A stretch of DNA of 64,000 bases. Origin: Branchiostoma floridae (lineage: Eukaryota; Chordata; Leptocardii; Amphioxiformes; Branchiostomatidae). Under the pieces are notes generated by a model, which worked only from the letters and a program-made list of their open reading frames with translations, was not told the origin of the DNA and did not search any database. Of this stretch, positions 13,500-50,001 are shown in pieces. Position 1 is the stretch's first letter, and the number at the start of each line of letters is the position of its first letter. The position numbers and the translations under genes were made by a program. The stretch is from positions 156,332 to 220,331 of the forward strand of contig NW_023365704.1 in the NCBI RefSeq assembly GCF_000003815.2, read 5' to 3'.

Positions 13500-14410
13500 A
13501 TGATACGACCGTTGCTGTTAATCGTGGCCATAGCTATGTCAGTCGCCCCAGAGGTTCACGGGAAACCGGCACTGGCACGGGAACAGGGTGACGAACAACA
13601 AGGAATTCAACAAGATCAAGGTAAGGTAGCAGAAAACAGTTTTTCTTCTCGCCTCTACATTCACATCGTTAACGACCCTATTTAGCTTCGACGATTTATA
13701 GTATGGCGCATTCATTTATGAGAAATTAACTGTCATCATAATCATTATTTTCTCCATATGTTATAATTATTATCATCATCAATATCATTATTACAATAAG
13801 TATTGTCATTATCAAAACAAAACAAAAAATTATAATCATAATCACTATTTTTATCATTCATTATCAATGTAATCATTATCATGTATCGTTATCATACCAT
13901 AACATTATCATCACTAACAGTAATTATCGTTATCTTCATTATCGTTCTATTATCATTTTTATAAATATCATCATCTTCATCATCATTTTTAAATACATTC
14001 TATTGATAACTCAAATATCATACAGTGAACCGTCCATCAAGAACATAAATAAAGAAATGCACATGTACTAAGAATGGTGCCTCAAGTAATTAAAGAAATG
14101 GTAATCTTAATCATTCACAGATGGGGGGATACCCACAGAAGTGACGCCCCACGCTTCCCACGACAAGTCTTCGGCCCACCGGGTCCTCTCTCTAACTTCC
14201 TCGGTGGGTAGTGCGATGTCGCCCCGCCGACCTCAGAGAGACGCGCCCCCTCGGCGGGACCAGAAGGTTGCCATCAAGGTCCGTCACCTGAGAAGGACCA
14301 AGCCGTCCAACAAGAAGCTGTGGCAAAAATTCCTGAGCATGCGCCGTATGGCCAACCTGAGCTACCTGGCTTTTCCCATTGCCTACCTTATGGACCCGCC
14401 ACGTGGTTGA
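13500..14410 (+). CDS. Secreted basic peptide precursor, unknown family
   Basis: Two exons, 13500-13620 and 14121-14410 (stop included), joined in phase 1, predict 136 residues. Residues 1-21 are a good signal peptide (hydrophobic LLLIVAIAMSV, cleavage after HG). The mature part has no cysteine and many basic pairs: PRRP, PPRRD, LRRTK, NKKLW, MRRMA. The last 20 or so residues after MRR are hydrophobic and end DPPRG before the stop, so processing could give an amidated peptide starting MANLSY and ending PPR. This layout is typical of neuropeptide or hormone precursors, and a nearby TATA box agrees. I do not recognise the family; a PTH-like or other class B ligand was considered without a match. 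The intron carries an ATTATCATC microsatellite. Confidence 0.65.
13735..14000. repeat. (ATT/ATC) microsatellite in intron
   Basis: ATTATCATCATC-like repeats fill most of the intron of the peptide gene. Confidence 0.8.
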
Positions 14411-40310: not shown

Positions 40311-43300
40311 TCATCCAGCGAAGGGTGTCTTCTGAACTATTTTGCCCTCTCTGTCCACCGCAAAGTTGTAGTTCTTAGGATCGGCGAGCGCACTTTCAAT
40401 GGCTTCCTCCACATTGTCTAATGTTATGAAGTGCTTACTGGCTTCCTATAACATAAGGCAGAGAGAGAGAAAAAGTTATTATCAATAGATTATTTCTTTA
40501 GTTGTAAAGTTTGAGCTTTGTTCCAAAACAAAAGAAACACTAGAATAAAGAAGTACTATGTTTAGTACAGTTTACTACACATTCTTATGAAATAAACACC
40601 AACTATCTGAAGTCATAATCTGTTATTGTTAATAGTATAGAACACAGGAAATCATTTTCGAAATGTCATCACTCAGTTGTTGCATCTAAATTATTACGTC
40701 TCTTAGCAGTGGCTGACAAAAAATGCTACGGTCAGCAGGTTTTTGCTTGGGTCAGTTTGGTAGCCCGACATACACTTTTTGGGGCTAGGTCTAGCAAGTT
40801 CTAAAAGTAAAGACCTACCTTTTCCTGTCTGACTAGTTCATCCATCCGTTCCACCATCTCTTGTTCCCTCTGTTCATTCTGTATTGACATCTCCAGATCT
40901 GCCTGTTCTCTCTCCAGGGCTTGTCTTTGTTCTCGAACCAACCTGTCAACAAACAAACAAACAAAGAAACAAACAGTCATTACACACGTATTAACACCTT
41001 GGGGTATTTGTTTCAATGTTTGTGTTGTATAACCAGTAAAATGTATCATGTCATAACATACATGGATTCTACTGAAGAGTATAGGTTGCATTTTCAGACA
41101 GAAGGACCCCTATATCTACTCTTTTTTACTGTGCAGGGTTCTTTTACATGCTGGAGGCGTGGCTTTCCTCAGACACCAGTATTTGAGTAGTTTCTTTTTA
41201 TGAAAATGCTCATTGTCTATTGTTATATGTTACATTGTCTATTGTCCACTATGTTTCTACCATGTACTTGCAATTGCCTCCAGACATAAACTTAAATACA
41301 GTCAAACCTGTCTAAAGCGACCACTCAAGGGACTGGAGAAATATGGCCCCTATAGACAGGTGGCCACTATAGAGAAAATGTTGATCAATTGACCATGAGC
41401 AAGCTACACATGATTTAGTTCCCACTAATCTTTCTCACCAAGAAACATTGTCTCGATCGATGTCTCACCGACAAAGACTTGCACTTTAATGCTTAAGGCA
41501 TGCATACCGTCTGCTACCGCCAAAATGACCCTGTCAGTGTCAGGAACTCCAAATCCTCGCAAACTACAATTTCAAACTCGATGCAGGGTGACATAATGCT
41601 GCAGTGTGGTCGCAATAGGCAGTGTTTCTGTATCAACGGGATCGGAAATTGTGTGGCCGTGGCCGCGTTGGACAGGTGGCCGCTAAGCCTATTTCTTAAT
41701 CATTACGAATCCAAGGGACCGACAAAAAGTGGCCACTATAGCCAGGTGGCCGGTATGCAAAGGTGGCCGCTAATACAGGTTTGACTGTATAGCAAATTCC
41801 ACTAGAAAAAATCGATAATGTACTGTGCATCAATTATGCTTTACAGCTGTAACAGCTAGGCAGCACCATAGACAGTGTTACATATGCTAAATGCCTGCCA
41901 CCGAAAACACCAAAAAACAATCACTGGACTTAGATTAGATGGACAAACAGCTCGAAGCACTGTATAAGCTGTGCAACAAACGTACAAGCCTCACTGTCAA
42001 CAAAAAGTGGAACATGCTAGTTTTTTCATGTCTGGACACTACAGTGTCTACACACCTGCACAACAGGCTTTAGGATTTGCCTTGATAGGATATAAGAAAT
42101 CCAGAAAAGGAAGACACTGCAAGAACGTTCTAAAGGCCGACCTCAAAGACAGAGGACTAGGACCGTTGCTGTCAGGAAGAAAACTATGGGAGCTAATAAG
42201 GAAGCTCGTGATGAACATGATGAAGTGGATAGAGTTGAAGAAAGACTGATTGCAGATGCAGGGTGTCCAGACCACTGCAGCAGCAGAACATGTAGTGGAT
42301 TCCTACTACTGGAACACTTACCTTTCCTGGTGCATCCGTTCGTTCTCTCTCCTGTTGAACTCCATCAGTTTGAAGTGTTCCTCATCCTCCTCCTTCTCTC
42401 TCTTAGCTGTGTCTGCTCCCTCCTCCTGACGCTTCCTGGCGAGGTATTCTTCCTGGAACAAACTCCTGGAAAGGTATGGAGAGTTCTAGTGTAACTGTAA
42501 GGTAGCAGCTGCAGGATACAGTATTTATCCATGACCCCCGGAGTATTGACGTAGGGGTTAAAAAGTAGTGCGGCAGAAATCTGGAAGTGTCTGTAAACAC
42601 TAATGTGAAAGATGGCGGGACATGAACCTTGCTATATGGTAATGTAATGAGTGGACTTTCAGATCGTATGTCCGATCGTGCTGAAGTATCCACAAGCACT
42701 GGCAAATCCAGTGCTGAAGGTGAGGTTTTTGTAATTCAGCACTCGGTTCCAGTGCTGACGGCGATTTTGGCACTGGAGAACCAGTGCTGAATGACATTTG
42801 ACCTGGCCCGGCCCCGCTGTCCCCGGATTTCAGCACTGGTAACAAGAGTGCTGACGGCAGTTCAGCACTAGAAAACGAGTGCTAAAAGATATTCAGCACT
42901 GGAAAACCAGCACTGAGGGAGCTTCAGCACTGGAACAAGGCCGATCAGCACAGGAAAACCAGTGCTGAGACAGTTTAGACAATAGAGTTAATTCCAGTTG
43001 TGGCGGCCATGTTGGATTTCTGGGGTCATCCGGGGTCATGGCACCAGAACGAGACTGCAGGTGGTACCAGCTGGGCATTCTACTATATAGGCTGTATTGC
43101 AGACATAAGTATGCCATCTTCGGGAGTGCATTTCACCCCTCTAAGGTTAACAACTGCACACTATATGCCTGTTATCTATAGAAAATATTGTTTTAGACAT
43201 TTGAACTTGATTTTGGTGATATTTTTTATTAATTTTTCACATTTTTTGACGGGTGACCTGAGAACAACTAATGTCAGTATTAATATCCTCCATGTGCGCT

Positions 43301-46300
43301 GTGTATTGGTAACTGTGATTAAACCATACAAAAACATGGAAATATCGGACTGACAGACCTTTGGGTAGAAAATTAGAAGACATTTGGCTGTTATTCTGAT
43401 GATTTCTCGATGCCAAGAACTGTTCTGCAAACTACACTCTATGGGAAAATCCTGCGGCACTCAATGGGGAAGGCGGTGTATGTACCTGGTGTGCTCCTCT
43501 ACTTGTTTCCCAATTTATTTGACAGTGTTTTTTTTTTGTTTCATTTTATTTTAGTTTAAACAACATGCCCCGTAACAAAAATGTCCACATGTTGCATAAC
43601 ATTGTGGGATACAATGTAGCAGATTGTTTACTGTTGTTTTTGCAATTTTTCAATGCCAAGGTGGAAAAAAAACATAACTTTGATCATAAGTGCCAGCGGA
43701 GGAGGGATTGTAGCCTGAGTGTCATCCTAGGTAGCTTACCGGGCTCCCATACTCACCCCTCACAAACCAGAGGGGTGAGAATGAGAGCCTCGGTAACCAA
43801 CTAGGATGACACTCAGGCTAGAGTCGGCCCTCACATTACTCTAAAAACCGGGCTTCATGCCAGTTTCAGATCAGTGTGGGTGGAATGTGATAGAATTTTC
43901 ACAGATGCTGCGAAGATCTGTTCATAAAACTATGTATTACTAAGTTCTATCACCAATTTACCCCTGTAGCTCTTCAAGTGGGATTAACCCCACATATGTA
44001 AAATGTTACAAGGGACAAAGTGATATGCTATGTCTAGTCTACTATTTCTACACTCAGGCAACAATTCCTCTTCCACAGACGATAAAATTGACGTTGGCAT
44101 TGAAAAATCCCTAACAGAAAAAATCTGCTACATTTCATCCCACAATTTTATGGACCCAACATGTGGACTTTGTTGTGTAGGGTTATGTTGTTTAAACTAG
44201 AATAAAACAATGAAAACATGAATTGGAAAGAAAGTAAAGGAGCACAACCGGCATGATATTCCCATGGAGCATAGTTTGCAGAACGGATCAATAAATCATC
44301 AGAACAACTGCCAAATGTCTTCTAAATTTCTACCCGCAAAGATGTTATCCGCATATTTTATGTATTTGTAGGGTTTAATTCCAATAGTAAACCTACTATA
44401 TCACAGTTACCAATACAAAGCACTCATGGATGATATATACACTGACACTAATTGTTCTTAGGTCACCCATTAAAAAATGTGAAAAATTGATAAAAAAATA
44501 TCACCAAAATCAAATTCAAATGTCCCAAACAATATTTTCTATATATAACAGGCATACATTGTGAAGTTGTTAACCTTAGAGGGGTGAAATGCACTCCCGA
44601 AGATGGCATACTTGTGTCTGCAATACAGCCTATAAAGTAGAATGCCCAGCTGGCACCACCTGCAGTCTCGTTCTGGTGCCATGACCCCGGATGACCCCGG
44701 AAATCCAACATGGCCGCCACAACTGGAATTAAGGTAGCAGAACACAGTTTTTCTCCTATGGGGATTTCTATAGTTAAGGACCCCAAAGTGAGGTGGTTCG
44801 ACGACTCAAAAGATATATCAGGGTGCAAAAGTAATTAACAAGAATTCAATATGTTGGAGTTCAGGGTAGAATCTACAACATATGTGAAAATGAGCATAAG
44901 TTTGTCGGCTCGTTTTCCCAGAAAGAACACTTTGAAATGACCCCCAGCGGAGGTCACCATACTGCAGCCGACACACGGAAGTAGCGGGAACCGGATTCGT
45001 GCGCGAAATTCTACCCAGCCAAAAAAGCATCGTAACCCAACTCATACAGCCTCAAAACTTACGTATTCCTCTACTATCCACCACAGTTTCCGACTCGCTG
45101 ACGTGCACAGAAAAATTTCTATGGCTTTTCAAGAACTGCGACGACCTATTTTGTGCCCGGCCTATTTATGTCCACGGGGGTCGCCCATAAATACTGTGTT
45201 ATGCGACCTTAAGCAAACTTGAACTGTCATTTCTTTTAATTCATACAAGAGAACAACTCTTGCTGAACATGTGTACCAAATATGGTTTTGTTCCAATGGA
45301 CTTTCGCTGAGATATTGCGAACTTTGTACTTTGTTATCTCGCCGTCTGCCACGTGGGTACTGTCCTTGGTACTGTGCGTGCCATGTACAGGACTGTCTTG
45401 AAGCTGTGTGAATAAAATGTTTGCGATACAAACCTATTCTGCGCTTTATTGAAATCATTATTGATTGGAAGCTTTAGTTGAGCTAATTTCAAGGCTTTCT
45501 TTGTTCTTCTTTGTTGGAAGAAGGCTAGCAAGGGATTGTTTGTGTGTGTTGAGAGCTTACGTTAGGGGCCAAGAAGAGAGTAGCAGATAGATGGAGACAG
45601 ACAAGTACTAAGGACTTTCTCCAGACTGTGGACAGAGAAAAAGTAGCAGAAACTGTAGATCTTGTAACCATTCAGTGCCCTTACGAGTATAGCTTTTATC
45701 AAAGTGTCACTTTAGCGTGATTTAGGAATATCGCGGGGTTACGTAATGTCGGTCTCCCATGCAGGTGCAGACCTTATCATTGACGGTGGTGGGTGAAATG
45801 TGCCTTTATCTTTAATATTAATCCACTTATTATTGTTCCGTGTCGACGATTAAAAGAGTTTTACACGTTCAGACTAGATCATTTGCATGTGCGCCAGTTG
45901 GAAAGGGGAAGGGGGGTGTAAGGTAGTTCGCACCTCCGCTCTAAAATGCGGTCGCGCTTAGAAGAAACAATAATGTTTATTGCAAGTGAGAAGAAAAGTG
46001 CCGACTTGGGCATTATTCCTACACACTGTCTAGTCTGCAACAACCACGGTCGCTTCCTGACAAAGTTCGTTTACCATGGGTCGTCCAGCCGGTAGCCGAG
46101 CTTTGAAAAATCGGATGGTTCGCAACAGCAAGTTTCAAGCTGGGAACACCCCCTGGAACAAAGCTTCACTAGCGGAAAGTGTAGAGAATACAGGGACGGA
46201 AGAGCCCTCTGCCTCTACCGTCGCGTCATGTAGCAGCTCGAGCGGCGTGGAGCAGGAGTCACAGTCGGAGCCGACACACACTGCGTCCGCCATCGATGTA

Positions 46301-49300
46301 AAAAAGAGGCTAGATGAAGACACGTACAAGATGCTCTGCAGGCCCAGAGATCGTGTCATCATCCCTAGACTCCGCGTTACCAAGACGAAGTGCTACACAG
46401 AGCCGAAGAGGTCTTACAAGAAGAACCAAGTAAGTGGAAGCAGAATCATCGATTTGCAAAAGATGGAAGATTTGATGAATCTGTTCAATGCCGGGCACCG
46501 AAAAGCGAACGGCAAAAGGATCTGCAAAGGAGACTGGAAGTTTTCCAGAAAACTAGAAAAGAAGATAGGGTTCGGGTGTATGGAGGCGCTTACCTGCAAG
46601 ACCTGCGGCTACAATACCACACCCGCAGAGCTCTTCCGACACCCGTCGCCCGGGCGCCCGTGGCCCCCTCCCCGTGAAAAGCAACATCCAGGCCGTTACT
46701 CCCGGTGCCAAAGACAGGTACGGTATAAGTGCCATAAAGCCTTTAATGGCTTCGCTTGGCATTCCCGACCCGTGCCGCACAACACTGCAGAGAAAGATGA
46801 ACGTGGTGGGTGAAGCCTACGCCGAATTGAATAAGAGACAGATGAAGAAGAGCTGTGAAACCTTGGCGGAGGTGACGCGCCATCGTGTAGAAGCGGGACT
46901 GCAAGAAAGCGCCTCAGTGGCAGTTGAGATGGATGTTGGGTATAACAATCCACCAAAGGGAAAGTCCAGAGGACAACCAGGGACACAAGCGGAATGCCCC
47001 ATGTTTGATGGCGTGACGCAGAAGAAGATGCTATTGGCCTTAAGTACAGCAAACCAGCATTGTGTGGATTGCGATAAGCTGGAGGAGCAAGGCCTGCCAT
47101 TCGGACCCGGCTCTCATGAAGGGTGTACCCGGACTTTTGAGAAACACATTAAGATGGGTAGCAGTGAGAGAAAGATGGCGAAGGAAAACACAAAGACAGC
47201 CTTGAAGAACGGTATAATCCCGGGAATTGTCGAAACTGACAATGACTCTAAGATTTCCGGTGGCACCAACGAGGCCCTGCATGAAGCCGGCTTGCCTCCT
47301 GCAGAAAAACAAGACTGTATGCAACATATGAGCAGAAATCACCGAAGTAAAGCGTACAACCTGTGTCTGGAAGTGTTTGAAGGAGGAAACAACACCAAGG
47401 TCACGAAACAGGAGGCAAGTCGGCGGGTAGGACTATATATTGTCGACAGATGCGTGAGGGCACTGTACACCGCCAGAGCACACCATCCTGATAGTGACGA
47501 GGACTTTTTCCGAGAGGTGGAACGCGGGCGCCCGACAATAGTTAGTTGTGTATCCGGGGAACATTCTGAATGCACTTCTGACTTCGGTTGTCCGGAGTAC
47601 ACCCGAGAGGGTCGCCGCCCTGCCCCAGACATTCCAGGCGGAGGGAACTTGGCTCTGTCCGACAACGACCGACGCACCCTGCAAAAGTTGGTAGACTATA
47701 GACTTGCAGAAGAATCAGTGAAAAGGCAGCGGACATTCATGAATACCAACAAGAGTGAAGCCTTCCACAATCGTGCTTTGAAGGCCGTCCCTAAGGCCGT
47801 AACGTGGAAGCGAAATTACGAGGGTCGTGTTCATGCAGCCGGACTAGCGGACTCCGTCGGATCGGGTTCCGCCATACTGCGAGCCAACGAATTCCTGGGT
47901 GCGGCGCATCCCCAGGGGAGTTCCGGGACTGCTGCACTTGAAGGCATCGACAAAGAAGAGGAATACCATAAGAAAAGGAAGGGGACTTTTAAATATAAGA
48001 TGAGGCGCTACATTCTGCGCAAAAGGAAGGTAGAACAGAAAGATAGGAAAGGGGTTGGATATGAGACGGACTCTGTACACGCTATGTCTAGGGGAGACCA
48101 TTGTTACGCGAAGTAGGCGGACTATAAATCGTCTTATGACAGGAAAAACTGTCTTTAGTGCAAGACGCATCCCTGTCCTGCTTAGGGAAACGTGGAACCC
48201 TTTAGGTTTGGGGGGGGGGGGGGGTTCCGAGCTGGGGTGTGTGGGCTGAGGTGTGGGGAGGGGGGCGATGCTGAGAAGTCACCGTAAGACGCAGTTTCTG
48301 TATTCCCCGTGTTTCTGGCAATGTCCACCTATAAGACACGTCTTTCGCTCATTGTTGACATCATGCGGTTCTAAGGACAGATGTTCTTCTGCTACACATT
48401 TCTTTTGATGACACAGATGACTTATATCTCTTCCATCAATAAATCCGTTGTACAGAAAATATGCAACCCTCGGTAGTCTTTCATCCCTACATTTAGGTCC
48501 AATCTGCACACTTATTCTGCCGTAACCATCTCCATCGGTCCTCCCATTCCACAAAACACATCCTTTGTCATCTGTAGACACTTCGGCACGGATTCTTTGT
48601 AGCACAGATGCCTTGTACGCGTCGCTCCACGCGCTGTATCCCGCCATTGCTAATATATAAAACAGATGTGCTGTGGCCCCGTACAAGGCATATCTGGGGG
48701 CCGGCAATTGGTCTCATTATCTAAACAAATTTAATATTCCGGGTGACTTTTTCTTCTACAAGGAGCTTGCCAGACCATAATCTAACGTTCTAAGCGGTGG
48801 GGGTTGGGGGGTTGTCTTTTTTAGGGCGGAAAAGAGGGGTGGGGGTCGAGCGGGCTTGGGGCCACACTAAGTCCTATACTTAAGCATAGGGAGCGGTCTT
48901 GGCGGCCGTTGCCATGGTAACGGCGGGTGTGGCGGTAAAAAAAATGTTACATTTCAAGTCAGCCGACGTCATTCCCTAACATATCAGTCAAATTCAATGC
49001 CGTTTACCGTCCCTAGGGAATTACCACTGTGGTTAAAGGTAGCAGAACACAGTTTTTCGCCTATGGGGATTTCTATAGTTAAGGACCCCAAAGTGAGGTG
49101 GTTCGACGACTCAAAAGATATATCAGGGTGCAAAAGTAATTAACAAGAATTCAATATGTTGGAGTTCAGGGTAGAATCTACAACATATGTGAAAATGAGC
49201 ATAAGTTTGTCGGCTCGTTTTCTCAGAAAGAACACTTTGAAATGACCCCCAGCGGAGGTCACCATACTGCAGCCGACACACGGAAGTAGCGGGAACCGGA

Positions 49301-50001
49301 TTCGTGCGCGAAATTCTACCCAGCCAAAAAAGCATCGTAACCCAACTCATACAGCCTCAAAACTTACGTATTCCTCTACTATCCACCACAGTTTCCGACT
49401 CGCTGACGTGCACAGAAAAATTTCTATGGCTTTTCAAGAACTGCGACGACCTATTTTGTGCCCGGCCTATTTATGTCCACGGGGGTCGCCCATAAATACT
49501 GTGTTATGCGACCTTAACTCTATTGAATCAGCACTGGAACACCAGTGCGGAAGGCGAGGTTTTCGTAGTGCGCCCTGGTATAATTTTATCCGTGTCGATG
49601 TCAGTCACCTTGTAGTCCTTAACTATAGGAATCCCCATAGGCCTAAAACTGTACTATGCTACCGTAACTGCACAAGAAACTTTGCCCCCCTCCCCATCCG
49701 TCCCCTCCCACAATTTTTAATATTTCCTGACAGTACATGTGTGTTTAGGTCCAAACATCACCCCTTACCTGACAGCCCGGAATTGAGTCCTGTAATGATT
49801 GTAAGCCGTCTTCAAGAACACGTGCTCGTCCGGATCTATGGGCGTGGGTTTCCTTACGTAGTTAGCCTTGGACGGAGCCCTCGGTACGTGTCTGGGTTTT
49901 CTACCGCGGAAGAACTGCAAAACAACCGGCGCTGCAGCTGGAATTCCCGGTGATTTCACTTGTCCGAGACGGCACAAAACGCCCGGAACTTGAGGAAACA
50001 T
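40311..50001 (-). CDS. MRPS26: Mitochondrial ribosomal protein S26 (mS26)
   Basis: Four exons on the minus strand: 50001-49769, 42465-42322, 40942-40819 and 40445-40311 (stop included). Phases match and give 211 residues. The N-terminus is basic and lacks acids (mitochondrial import). DPDEHVFLKTAYNHYR and FRAVR match the MRPS26 family start. A long charged helix follows (EYLARKRQEEG, MEFNRRENERMH, REQRQALEREQADLE). The C-terminus HFITLDNVEEAIESALADP with KNYNFAVDREGKIV is the family signature. Role: structural protein of the mitochondrial small ribosomal subunit. Intron 1 is 7.3 kb because of nested transposons. Confidence 0.92.
41299..41787. mobile_element. pogo/Tc1-type MITE
   Basis: Ends CAGTCAAACCTGT / ACAGGTTTGACTG, flanked by TA. 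The interior repeats AGGTGGCC(A/G)CTA motifs. A truncated relative is at 51880-52075. It lies in intron 2 of MRPS26. No transposase. Confidence 0.85.
44733..45208 (+). mobile_element. 476-bp terminal MITE, left copy
   Basis: TIRs GGTAGCAGAACACAG / CTGTGTTATGCGACC, TTAA on both sides. Nearly identical to 49038-49513; I saw only a few base differences, for example TTTCTCC versus TTTCGCC. Confidence 0.85.
46076..48116 (+). pseudogene. Mutator/Kolobok-type transposase with one frameshift
   Basis: Frame 1 (46076 to about 46640) starts MGRPAGSRALKNR, contains GNTPWNK and a CKTCGY zinc-type motif. Frame 2 runs from about 46640 to the stop at 48116 with RRPGARGP, KDRYGISAIKPLMASLGIP, MDVGYNNPPKGKSRGQPGTQ, a CVDC pair, ETDNDSK, and NTNKSEAFHNR. 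This series is what I know from eukaryotic proteins annotated with a Mutator-like transposase domain. Candidate DDE residues are the D of MDVGYNN, a D in ETDNDSK and the E of KSEAFH. A one-base shift near 46630-46645 divides the gene; it may be a real lesion or a sequencing error. Otherwise the frame is open over 2 kb. Confidence 0.75.
48279..48707 (-). CDS. I-PpoI-like His-Cys-box (zinc-loop) endonuclease
   Basis: Intact 142-residue frame; a start at the internal MAGYSAWSD is also possible. The C-terminal half has the zinc-loop homing-endonuclease signature: SHLCHQKKCVAEEHLSLEP, then NNERKTC, then CQKHGEYRNC. The His of SHLC is the expected general base and the Asn of VNNER the metal ligand. 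WNGRTDGDGYGRISVQ matches the region before the box. Family: DNA endonucleases with a beta-beta-alpha metal finger. It lies convergent to the transposase inside the same TTAA-flanked unit, so I infer it is cargo or part of the mobility machinery. Confidence 0.75.
   Translation of the reverse strand: MPAPRYALYGATAHLFYILAMAGYSAWSDAYKASVLQRIRAEVSTDDKGCVLWNGRTDGDGYGRISVQIGPKCRDERLPRVAYFLYNGFIDGRDISHLCHQKKCVAEEHLSLEPHDVNNERKTCLIGGHCQKHGEYRNCVLR
49038..49513 (+). mobile_element. 476-bp terminal MITE, right copy
   Basis: Same length and orientation as 44733-45208. Its left boundary is TTAA plus one extra A. Confidence 0.85.
49607..49664 (-). mobile_element. End fragment of the same TTAA MITE family
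   Basis: The reverse complement begins GGTAGCATAGTACAGTTTTA and continues CCTATGGGGATT and TATAGTTAAGGAC, matching the first ~55 bases of the 476-bp MITEs with mismatches. An older, truncated copy. Confidence 0.75.

Follow-up and report, generated by a model that had tools for sequence, protein, structure and literature searches.

KolobokP is a lineage of Kolobok DNA transposons (Kojima and Bao 2022, Mobile DNA 13:24, PMC9587614). According to the portions of that paper used here, it has an internal region (INT) enclosed by two long terminal direct repeats (LTDRs) of approximately 450 or 660 bp; the terminal inverted repeats (TIRs) are 11-18 bp long and follow 5'-RR...YY-3', and the target site duplications (TSDs) are 3-5 bp with no strict specificity. 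The same portions already set out the gene pair, the solo forms, multimers of the form (LTDR-INT)n-LTDR and the excision of LTDRs, give the micro-deletions at INT-INT junctions as 3 or 4 bp, and include Branchiostoma belcheri, B. floridae and B. japonicum among the hosts. A full-text literature search for 'KolobokP' returned this paper only. Here we describe a unit at positions 44733-49513 of a 64,000-nucleotide stretch of B. floridae DNA (the window; contig NW_023365704.1, positions 156,332 to 220,331). Because architecture, genes, junctions and empty sites agree, we are almost certain that it is a KolobokP DNA transposon of the layout LTDR-INT-LTDR, inserted whole at TTAA.

The unit is 4781 bp long. 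Its ends are two 476-bp direct repeats in the same (+) orientation, at 44733-45208 and 49038-49513, which differ at 2 of 476 positions in a repeat comparison. Each LTDR has 15-bp imperfect inverted ends of its own (GGTAGCAGAACACAG at the left, and GGTCGCATAACACAG for the right end read as reverse complement) and the termini GGT...ACC. The INT between them (45209-49037, + strand) is 3829 bp long; it starts with TTAAGC and finishes with GGTTAAA, and identical inner junctions are found in other units. Copies of TTAA, the TSD of the unit, lie directly outside the LTDRs at 44729-44732 and 49514-49517. A preliminary description of this DNA had reported twin same-orientation repeats with their own inverted ends, a transposase and a nuclease between them, and TTAA at the limits of a 4.78-kb unit. 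The coordinates proved exact, and both genes are confirmed by domains in the interior (PF20700 and PF05551). That description also called the repeats miniature inverted-repeat transposable elements (MITEs). The individual inverted ends are real, but the label falls; the repeats are the terminal direct repeats of a published lineage. Every KolobokP feature looked for in the unit is present: paired LTDRs, short TIRs, a DDD/E transposase with CxxH and CCHC motifs, and a downstream I-PpoI-like nuclease on the reverse strand. Solo, multimer and INT-INT forms are also found, the last with losses of 3 and 5 bp; the loss of 5 bp is one above the usual range of the paper.

The transposase domain is PF20700 (E 6e-49), which Pfam names Mutator-like. 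The match is split over two overlapping + strand reading frames. The 5' part (46076-46813) is open for 245 aa and contains profile positions 1-65; the main part (46674-48116, 480 aa) contains positions 71-352. The switch of frame lies between 46652 and 46676. The transposase frame of the window copy therefore reads as two pieces and appears broken, a feature missed in the preliminary description. Because of this break the copy is probably now immobile, unless served in trans. The main frame has D87, D189, a CxxH motif ending at H218, E362, and a C-C-H-C finger following the first D. In window numbering, D87, D189, H218 and E362 are invariant in five aligned transposases, together with C292, H297, C300 and C306; the finger after the first D is present in the window protein and missing in that of locus L044. 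Motif roles were assigned after Kojima and Bao (2022) and from our own reading. Ahead of the Pfam domain, at 46076-46190, there is an N-terminal 'AGN-PWNK' stretch common to the transposases of the window and of a second locus on the same contig, L045. The 142-aa product of the other gene (48279-48707, - strand) is a homing-type His-Me finger nuclease of the I-PpoI-like His-Cys box type (PF05551, E 5e-10). When four such nucleases from the B. floridae genome are combined in a profile, the PDB match is I-PpoI (E 7.9e-6), and the SH..C, HL/H and N residues align. The alignment includes the L045 nuclease and excludes that of L041, which has stops in the frame tried. As single queries against the PDB, the window nuclease gives I-PpoI at E 0.61, a weak match, and the L042 nuclease gives no match. 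An ADP-ribosylcyclase toxin chain outscored I-PpoI with the window nuclease (E 0.03); it is unrelated and was set aside as looking like chance. Searches of Rfam and of NCBIfam gave no match. It should be noted that the AGN-PWNK stretch of the transposase presumably resembles the NUMOD-type motifs of homing endonucleases.

The unit interrupts a host fold-back element. The left arm, core and most of the right arm of this element lie at 42981-44732 (+ strand; the end of the element is at 42981 or 42982), and its final bases resume at 49514-49525. The left arm retains the mirror site, CAATAGAGTTAATTCC, uninterrupted at 42981-42996. Two other fold-back copies in the genome were fetched with both arms (L046 and L047); both arms of each read AATAGAG-TTAA-TTCCAG, and the flanks are unrelated. 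These two copies are paralogous empty sites. Since other copies of the fold-back have both arms uninterrupted at the same place, the entire 4781-bp unit entered one TTAA of the fold-back, and this TTAA was duplicated and now stands on both sides. The preliminary description had argued for whole-unit insertion from the empty site in the opposite arm, and the intact arms of L046 and L047 bear it out. A genome search with the fold-back arm (best 40 of 194 candidates scored) places the TTAA within the arm. The 39 matches outside the window begin at query positions 1-10 (38 at 4-10 and one at 1), and all 39 run through the TTAA at query positions 15-18. As the matches begin upstream of it, the TTAA is internal to the fold-back arm, as the preliminary description had taken it to be, and is not the fold-back's own duplication.

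Sister units are found across the genome. A search with the LTDR, in which the best 40 of 985 candidates were scored, listed 42 matches, window copies included. These correspond to 28 separate places, of which the window is one, and the sequence of all 28 was examined. Among the matches listed there are 7 monomers, 4 multimers or INT-INT forms, 1 LTDR-INT and 16 solos. The LTDR-INT-LTDR monomers are the window unit, L010, L011 and L015, plus L016, L023 and L036, which are truncated, internally deleted or gapped. L009 (five LTDRs), L012, L013 and L014 are the multimer or INT-INT forms, and L028 is LTDR-INT. In short units the INT is approximately 505 bp long and is composed of the left ~120 bp and the right ~364 bp of the window INT; the short units are therefore internally deleted derivatives rather than separate MITE accidents. 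One junction was printed per locus for comparison of the inner junctions. The left one, TTAAGCAAACTT, is present in 10 of 10 loci; the right one is GGTTAAA in nine of ten and GGTTCAA in the other. There are two INT-INT junctions without an LTDR: GGTTAAGC in L013 and GGTTTTAAGC in L012, which have lost 5 and 3 bp, respectively, relative to the two INT tips. A single LTDR-LTDR junction, GCGACC-TTAAA-GGTAGC, is found in L012, where assembly gaps (N) lie beyond both the INT-INT and the LTDR-LTDR junction. The preliminary description had pointed to a genome search for units with the same ends; sister units, solos and arrays are what it finds, and the inner junctions are common to the units. In L012 (C2:20548500-20558499), positions 1021-1921 hold two LTDRs head to tail, joined via TTAAA without an INT and adjoining an assembly gap.

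Of the 25 usable insertions, 12 are flanked by exact outer 4-bp duplications: 5 of the 9 units, 6 of the 15 solos and an older solo LTDR described below. Shuffled flanks give a mean of 3.2, and the largest value in 20000 shuffles is 11. The TSD is TTAA in the window unit, L014 and L026. L009/L029, L012/L030/L031, L018 and L028/L039, in which an outer end is cut, gapped or missing, were dropped from the count, as were the overlapping loci L001-L008. L027 was counted with the last flank base treated as an altered first base of the LTDR; L032 has ATAAA common to both flanks but failed the strict 4-bp test.

A genome search for other coding copies with the transposase yielded 48 matches, all 62 candidates having been scored. 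Among them, only the window copy is both full-length and close. The next-best pieces are on C6 (68 percent over 153 residues, with shorter neighbours that reach 74 percent over 34 residues), and further pieces on C8 match at 58-60 percent. Six loci were fetched (L040-L045). Four contain a nuclease (L041, L042, L044 and L045), and three of the six have both the nuclease and an assignable pair of long direct repeats. The pairs match at 91 percent with gaps in L041, at 100 percent over 483 bp with the flanking TTAA included in L042, and at 99.8 percent over 470 bp in L045, which is on the window's own contig. L040 has a partial LTDR on one side, and L044 has other long direct repeats which are not resolvable into LTDRs. 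L045 (C146:250000-256500) lies approximately 46 kb from the window unit and belongs to another KolobokP family; its 735-aa transposase is open and it carries a nuclease. Part of a second unit adjoins it.

Paired LTDRs were compared in eight units, in which the two members differ at 2 (window), 0, 2, 1, 0, 0, 0 and 9 positions. The nearest outside copy differs from the window LTDRs at 6 positions (median 21), against 2 within the pair; in L011 the values are 7 and 2. Ten comparisons within the L009 array give 0-2 differences, and the nearest outside copy gives 3. Only these three loci are informative, and the LTDRs there are closest to their own partners. The window pair moved together or was homogenised. 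The near identity noted in the preliminary description is confirmed by the count of differences; recent activity, which had been read from it, is neither shown nor excluded, since a pair could also stay alike through LTDR exchange.

Several observations weigh against a KolobokP unit that inserted whole. An exact 4-bp duplication is missing in 13 of the 25 insertions, which is taken as age or footprint damage. Kolobok is defined by TTAA TSDs, yet TTAT, TTGA, ATGT, ATAT, ACAA and TTAC are also seen here. No LTDR pair could be assigned in the fetched stretches of L040, L043 and L044. In a young subfamily (L010, L012-L015 and L036) LTDR differences between units amount to just 1-5 sites, so pair likeness is uninformative there; one solo is identical to the L010 LTDR, and the 9 differences within the L036 pair exceed those between its left LTDR and other units (3-5). 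Exchange may have homogenised LTDR pairs. A rival reading has two MITEs landing independently on the two sides of a resident transposase-nuclease pair, the composite look being accidental. LTDRs stand alone at 16 of the 28 places among the matches listed and two INT-INT junctions have no LTDR, so single LTDRs seem mobile; in one subfamily, moreover, the two LTDRs of a unit resemble each other no more than LTDRs of different units do. However, the inner junctions recur in other units, the fold-back paralogues lack the whole unit, and the LTDRs of the window, L011 and L009 are nearest to their own partners. Common junctions, empty sites and pair likeness at three loci led us to reject independent MITE insertions, which we consider extremely improbable. 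The preliminary description had itself allowed that the genome might hold only independent MITE insertions round a stationary gene pair; instead, junctions recur, and TTAT and TTAA TSDs are found elsewhere.

Solos, tandem arrays and 4-bp duplications also resemble the behaviour of long terminal repeat (LTR) retrotransposons or of terminal-repeat retrotransposons in miniature (TRIMs), and the repeats could be the LTRs of a TRIM-like retroelement with a captured DNA-transposon gene pair. Against this, each repeat has 15-bp imperfect inverted ends beginning with GGT and not TG...CA, and by eye the inner junctions have neither a primer-binding-site-like tract nor a polypurine tract. In L042 and L045 the LTDRs around the same gene pair have other ends, and LTR elements do not usually yield INTs from between which the repeat has gone. 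No reverse transcriptase is present among the reading frames of the unit, beyond which none was sought. An LTR or TRIM identity was rejected on the inverted ends, the inner junctions and the differently ended L042 and L045; there is hardly any chance that it is correct. A closer contender accepts the KolobokP unit and holds that every solo here is a product of exchange between LTDRs and none of single-LTDR transposition. It predicts the exact duplications kept in 6 of 15 solos, though transposition does too. INT-INT junctions from which the LTDR has gone, with footprints of 3 and 5 bp, fit LTDR excision, and the relevant portion of PMC9587614 draws on Corbicula to argue for LTDR excision; INT-INT could also result if a multimer lost an entire monomer. 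Exchange as the only source of solos seems doubtful, with perhaps a minor share of the probability. A KolobokP unit whose LTDRs can move singly remains the preferred reading.

For such a KolobokP unit, the DDE transposase would bind the short inverted ends of the LTDR. It could mobilise one LTDR by its own two ends or the whole unit by the outer ends, in a mode likened to that of bacterial composite transposons. Unequal exchange between LTDRs would give rise to solos and multimers, and it may preserve the likeness of a pair. The I-PpoI-like nuclease probably cuts in or at the LTDR ends and so provokes exchange, a hypothesis put forward in the portions of PMC9587614 used here. What the sequences show directly is the whole-unit insertion, deleted sister units elsewhere (several with 4-bp duplications), solos, the five-LTDR array and the INT-INT junctions.

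The ends of the unit suggest a possible target for the nuclease. The outer left end, TTAA-GGTAGC (TTAAGGTAGC), equals ten bases of CTCTCTTAAGGTAGC, which we take to be the I-PpoI site. Cutting by I-PpoI presumably leaves TTAA overhangs. The string CTCTCTTAAGGTAGC occurs once in the part used here of PMC6294500, which deals with breaks made by I-PpoI; neither GGTAGC nor TTAAGG occurs in the main text of the KolobokP paper (PMC9587614). The nuclease of this family might recognise an LTDR end as its own site and cut at the TTAA where that end adjoins the INT, the next LTDR or the target; this is an unlikely proposal. Cuts at two such TTAAs, with the compatible overhangs rejoined, would then release the INT (leaving LTDR-TTAAA-LTDR, seen once, in L012) or the LTDR (leaving INT-TTAA-INT, as in L013). 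There is a narrow case for nuclease-made excision in the window lineage because the INT-INT and LTDR-LTDR junctions are TTAA-centred. If it were true, the nuclease would do more than stimulate unequal exchange: it would act as a second excision engine, one that is site-specific. Besides the window family, L041 and the older solo LTDR also have the GGTAGC end; it is absent from L042, which ends CGGTGC, and from L045 (GGCTAC / GGGCAA, its ends being set where the repeat match stops). The idea that KolobokP ends in general carry an I-PpoI half site was rejected, as it is missing from two of three lineages; the match to the I-PpoI site is no general feature of KolobokP and may be coincidental. In the window, the I-PpoI 15-mer has 1 match with 3 mismatches, where 1.2 are expected, and is no commoner than chance.

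The fold-back, and then the unit, appear to have inserted into an older, related solo LTDR (42501-49663, - strand), and this nesting is probable. The 3' part of the older LTDR lies at 42501-42980. The nhmmer match there (42511-42670, E 0.023) is weak alone and is accompanied by the TTAC duplication and a GCTACC end; the adjoining TSD copy is GTAA at 42497-42500. The 5' part (49526-49663), with the end GGTAGCATAGTACAG, matches at 49663-49566 with E 9e-9 and is followed by GTAA at 49664-49667. The net length of the older LTDR is approximately 620 bp, and it holds a palindromic minisatellite of ~30 bp with units TCAGCACTGG...CCAGTGCTGA. Elsewhere in the window, at 13625-13708, GGTAGCAGAAAACAG may be the decayed left end of an LTDR (a weak nhmmer match, E 0.24); by eye, it could sit where an intron begins.

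The architecture of a composite transposon is a striking thing to meet in animals, and at this locus it is real; it was named and analysed in 2022, with lancelets among the hosts. The observation is correct, and the kind of element is already known, lancelets included. Only the nesting in an older solo LTDR and the I-PpoI-site match at the ends are new here. The locus contributes a clear example of the element, one that has paralogous empty sites and is probably nested within an older LTDR. It also offers a cheap and concrete test of the KolobokP nuclease target, a matter left open in the portions of PMC9587614 used here.

Compared with known systems, the nuclease is of the I-PpoI family by profile, and TTAAGGTAGC is common to CTCTCTTAAGGTAGC and the outer left end of the unit; unlike that of I-PpoI, the window nuclease gene is not in a group I intron. 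Direct terminal repeats, solos and tandem arrays are shared with TRIM and LTR retrotransposons, whereas here each repeat has inverted ends and the enzyme is a DDE transposase. In bacterial composite transposons, which are flanked by insertion sequences (IS), and in IS26 pseudo-composite units, individually mobile direct-repeat ends move the segment between them, according to the portions of PMC9587614 used here. The preliminary description had drawn this parallel, and the architecture upholds it; here, however, it is the interior that carries the transposase, and the repeats at the ends have none. The LTDR-TTAAA-LTDR junction of L012 is not among the forms met in those portions of the KolobokP paper. 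Nothing essential is otherwise unlike KolobokP: the layout is LTDR-INT-LTDR, the LTDRs are of the ~450-bp class with short imperfect TIRs on each, and both genes are in the same arrangement.

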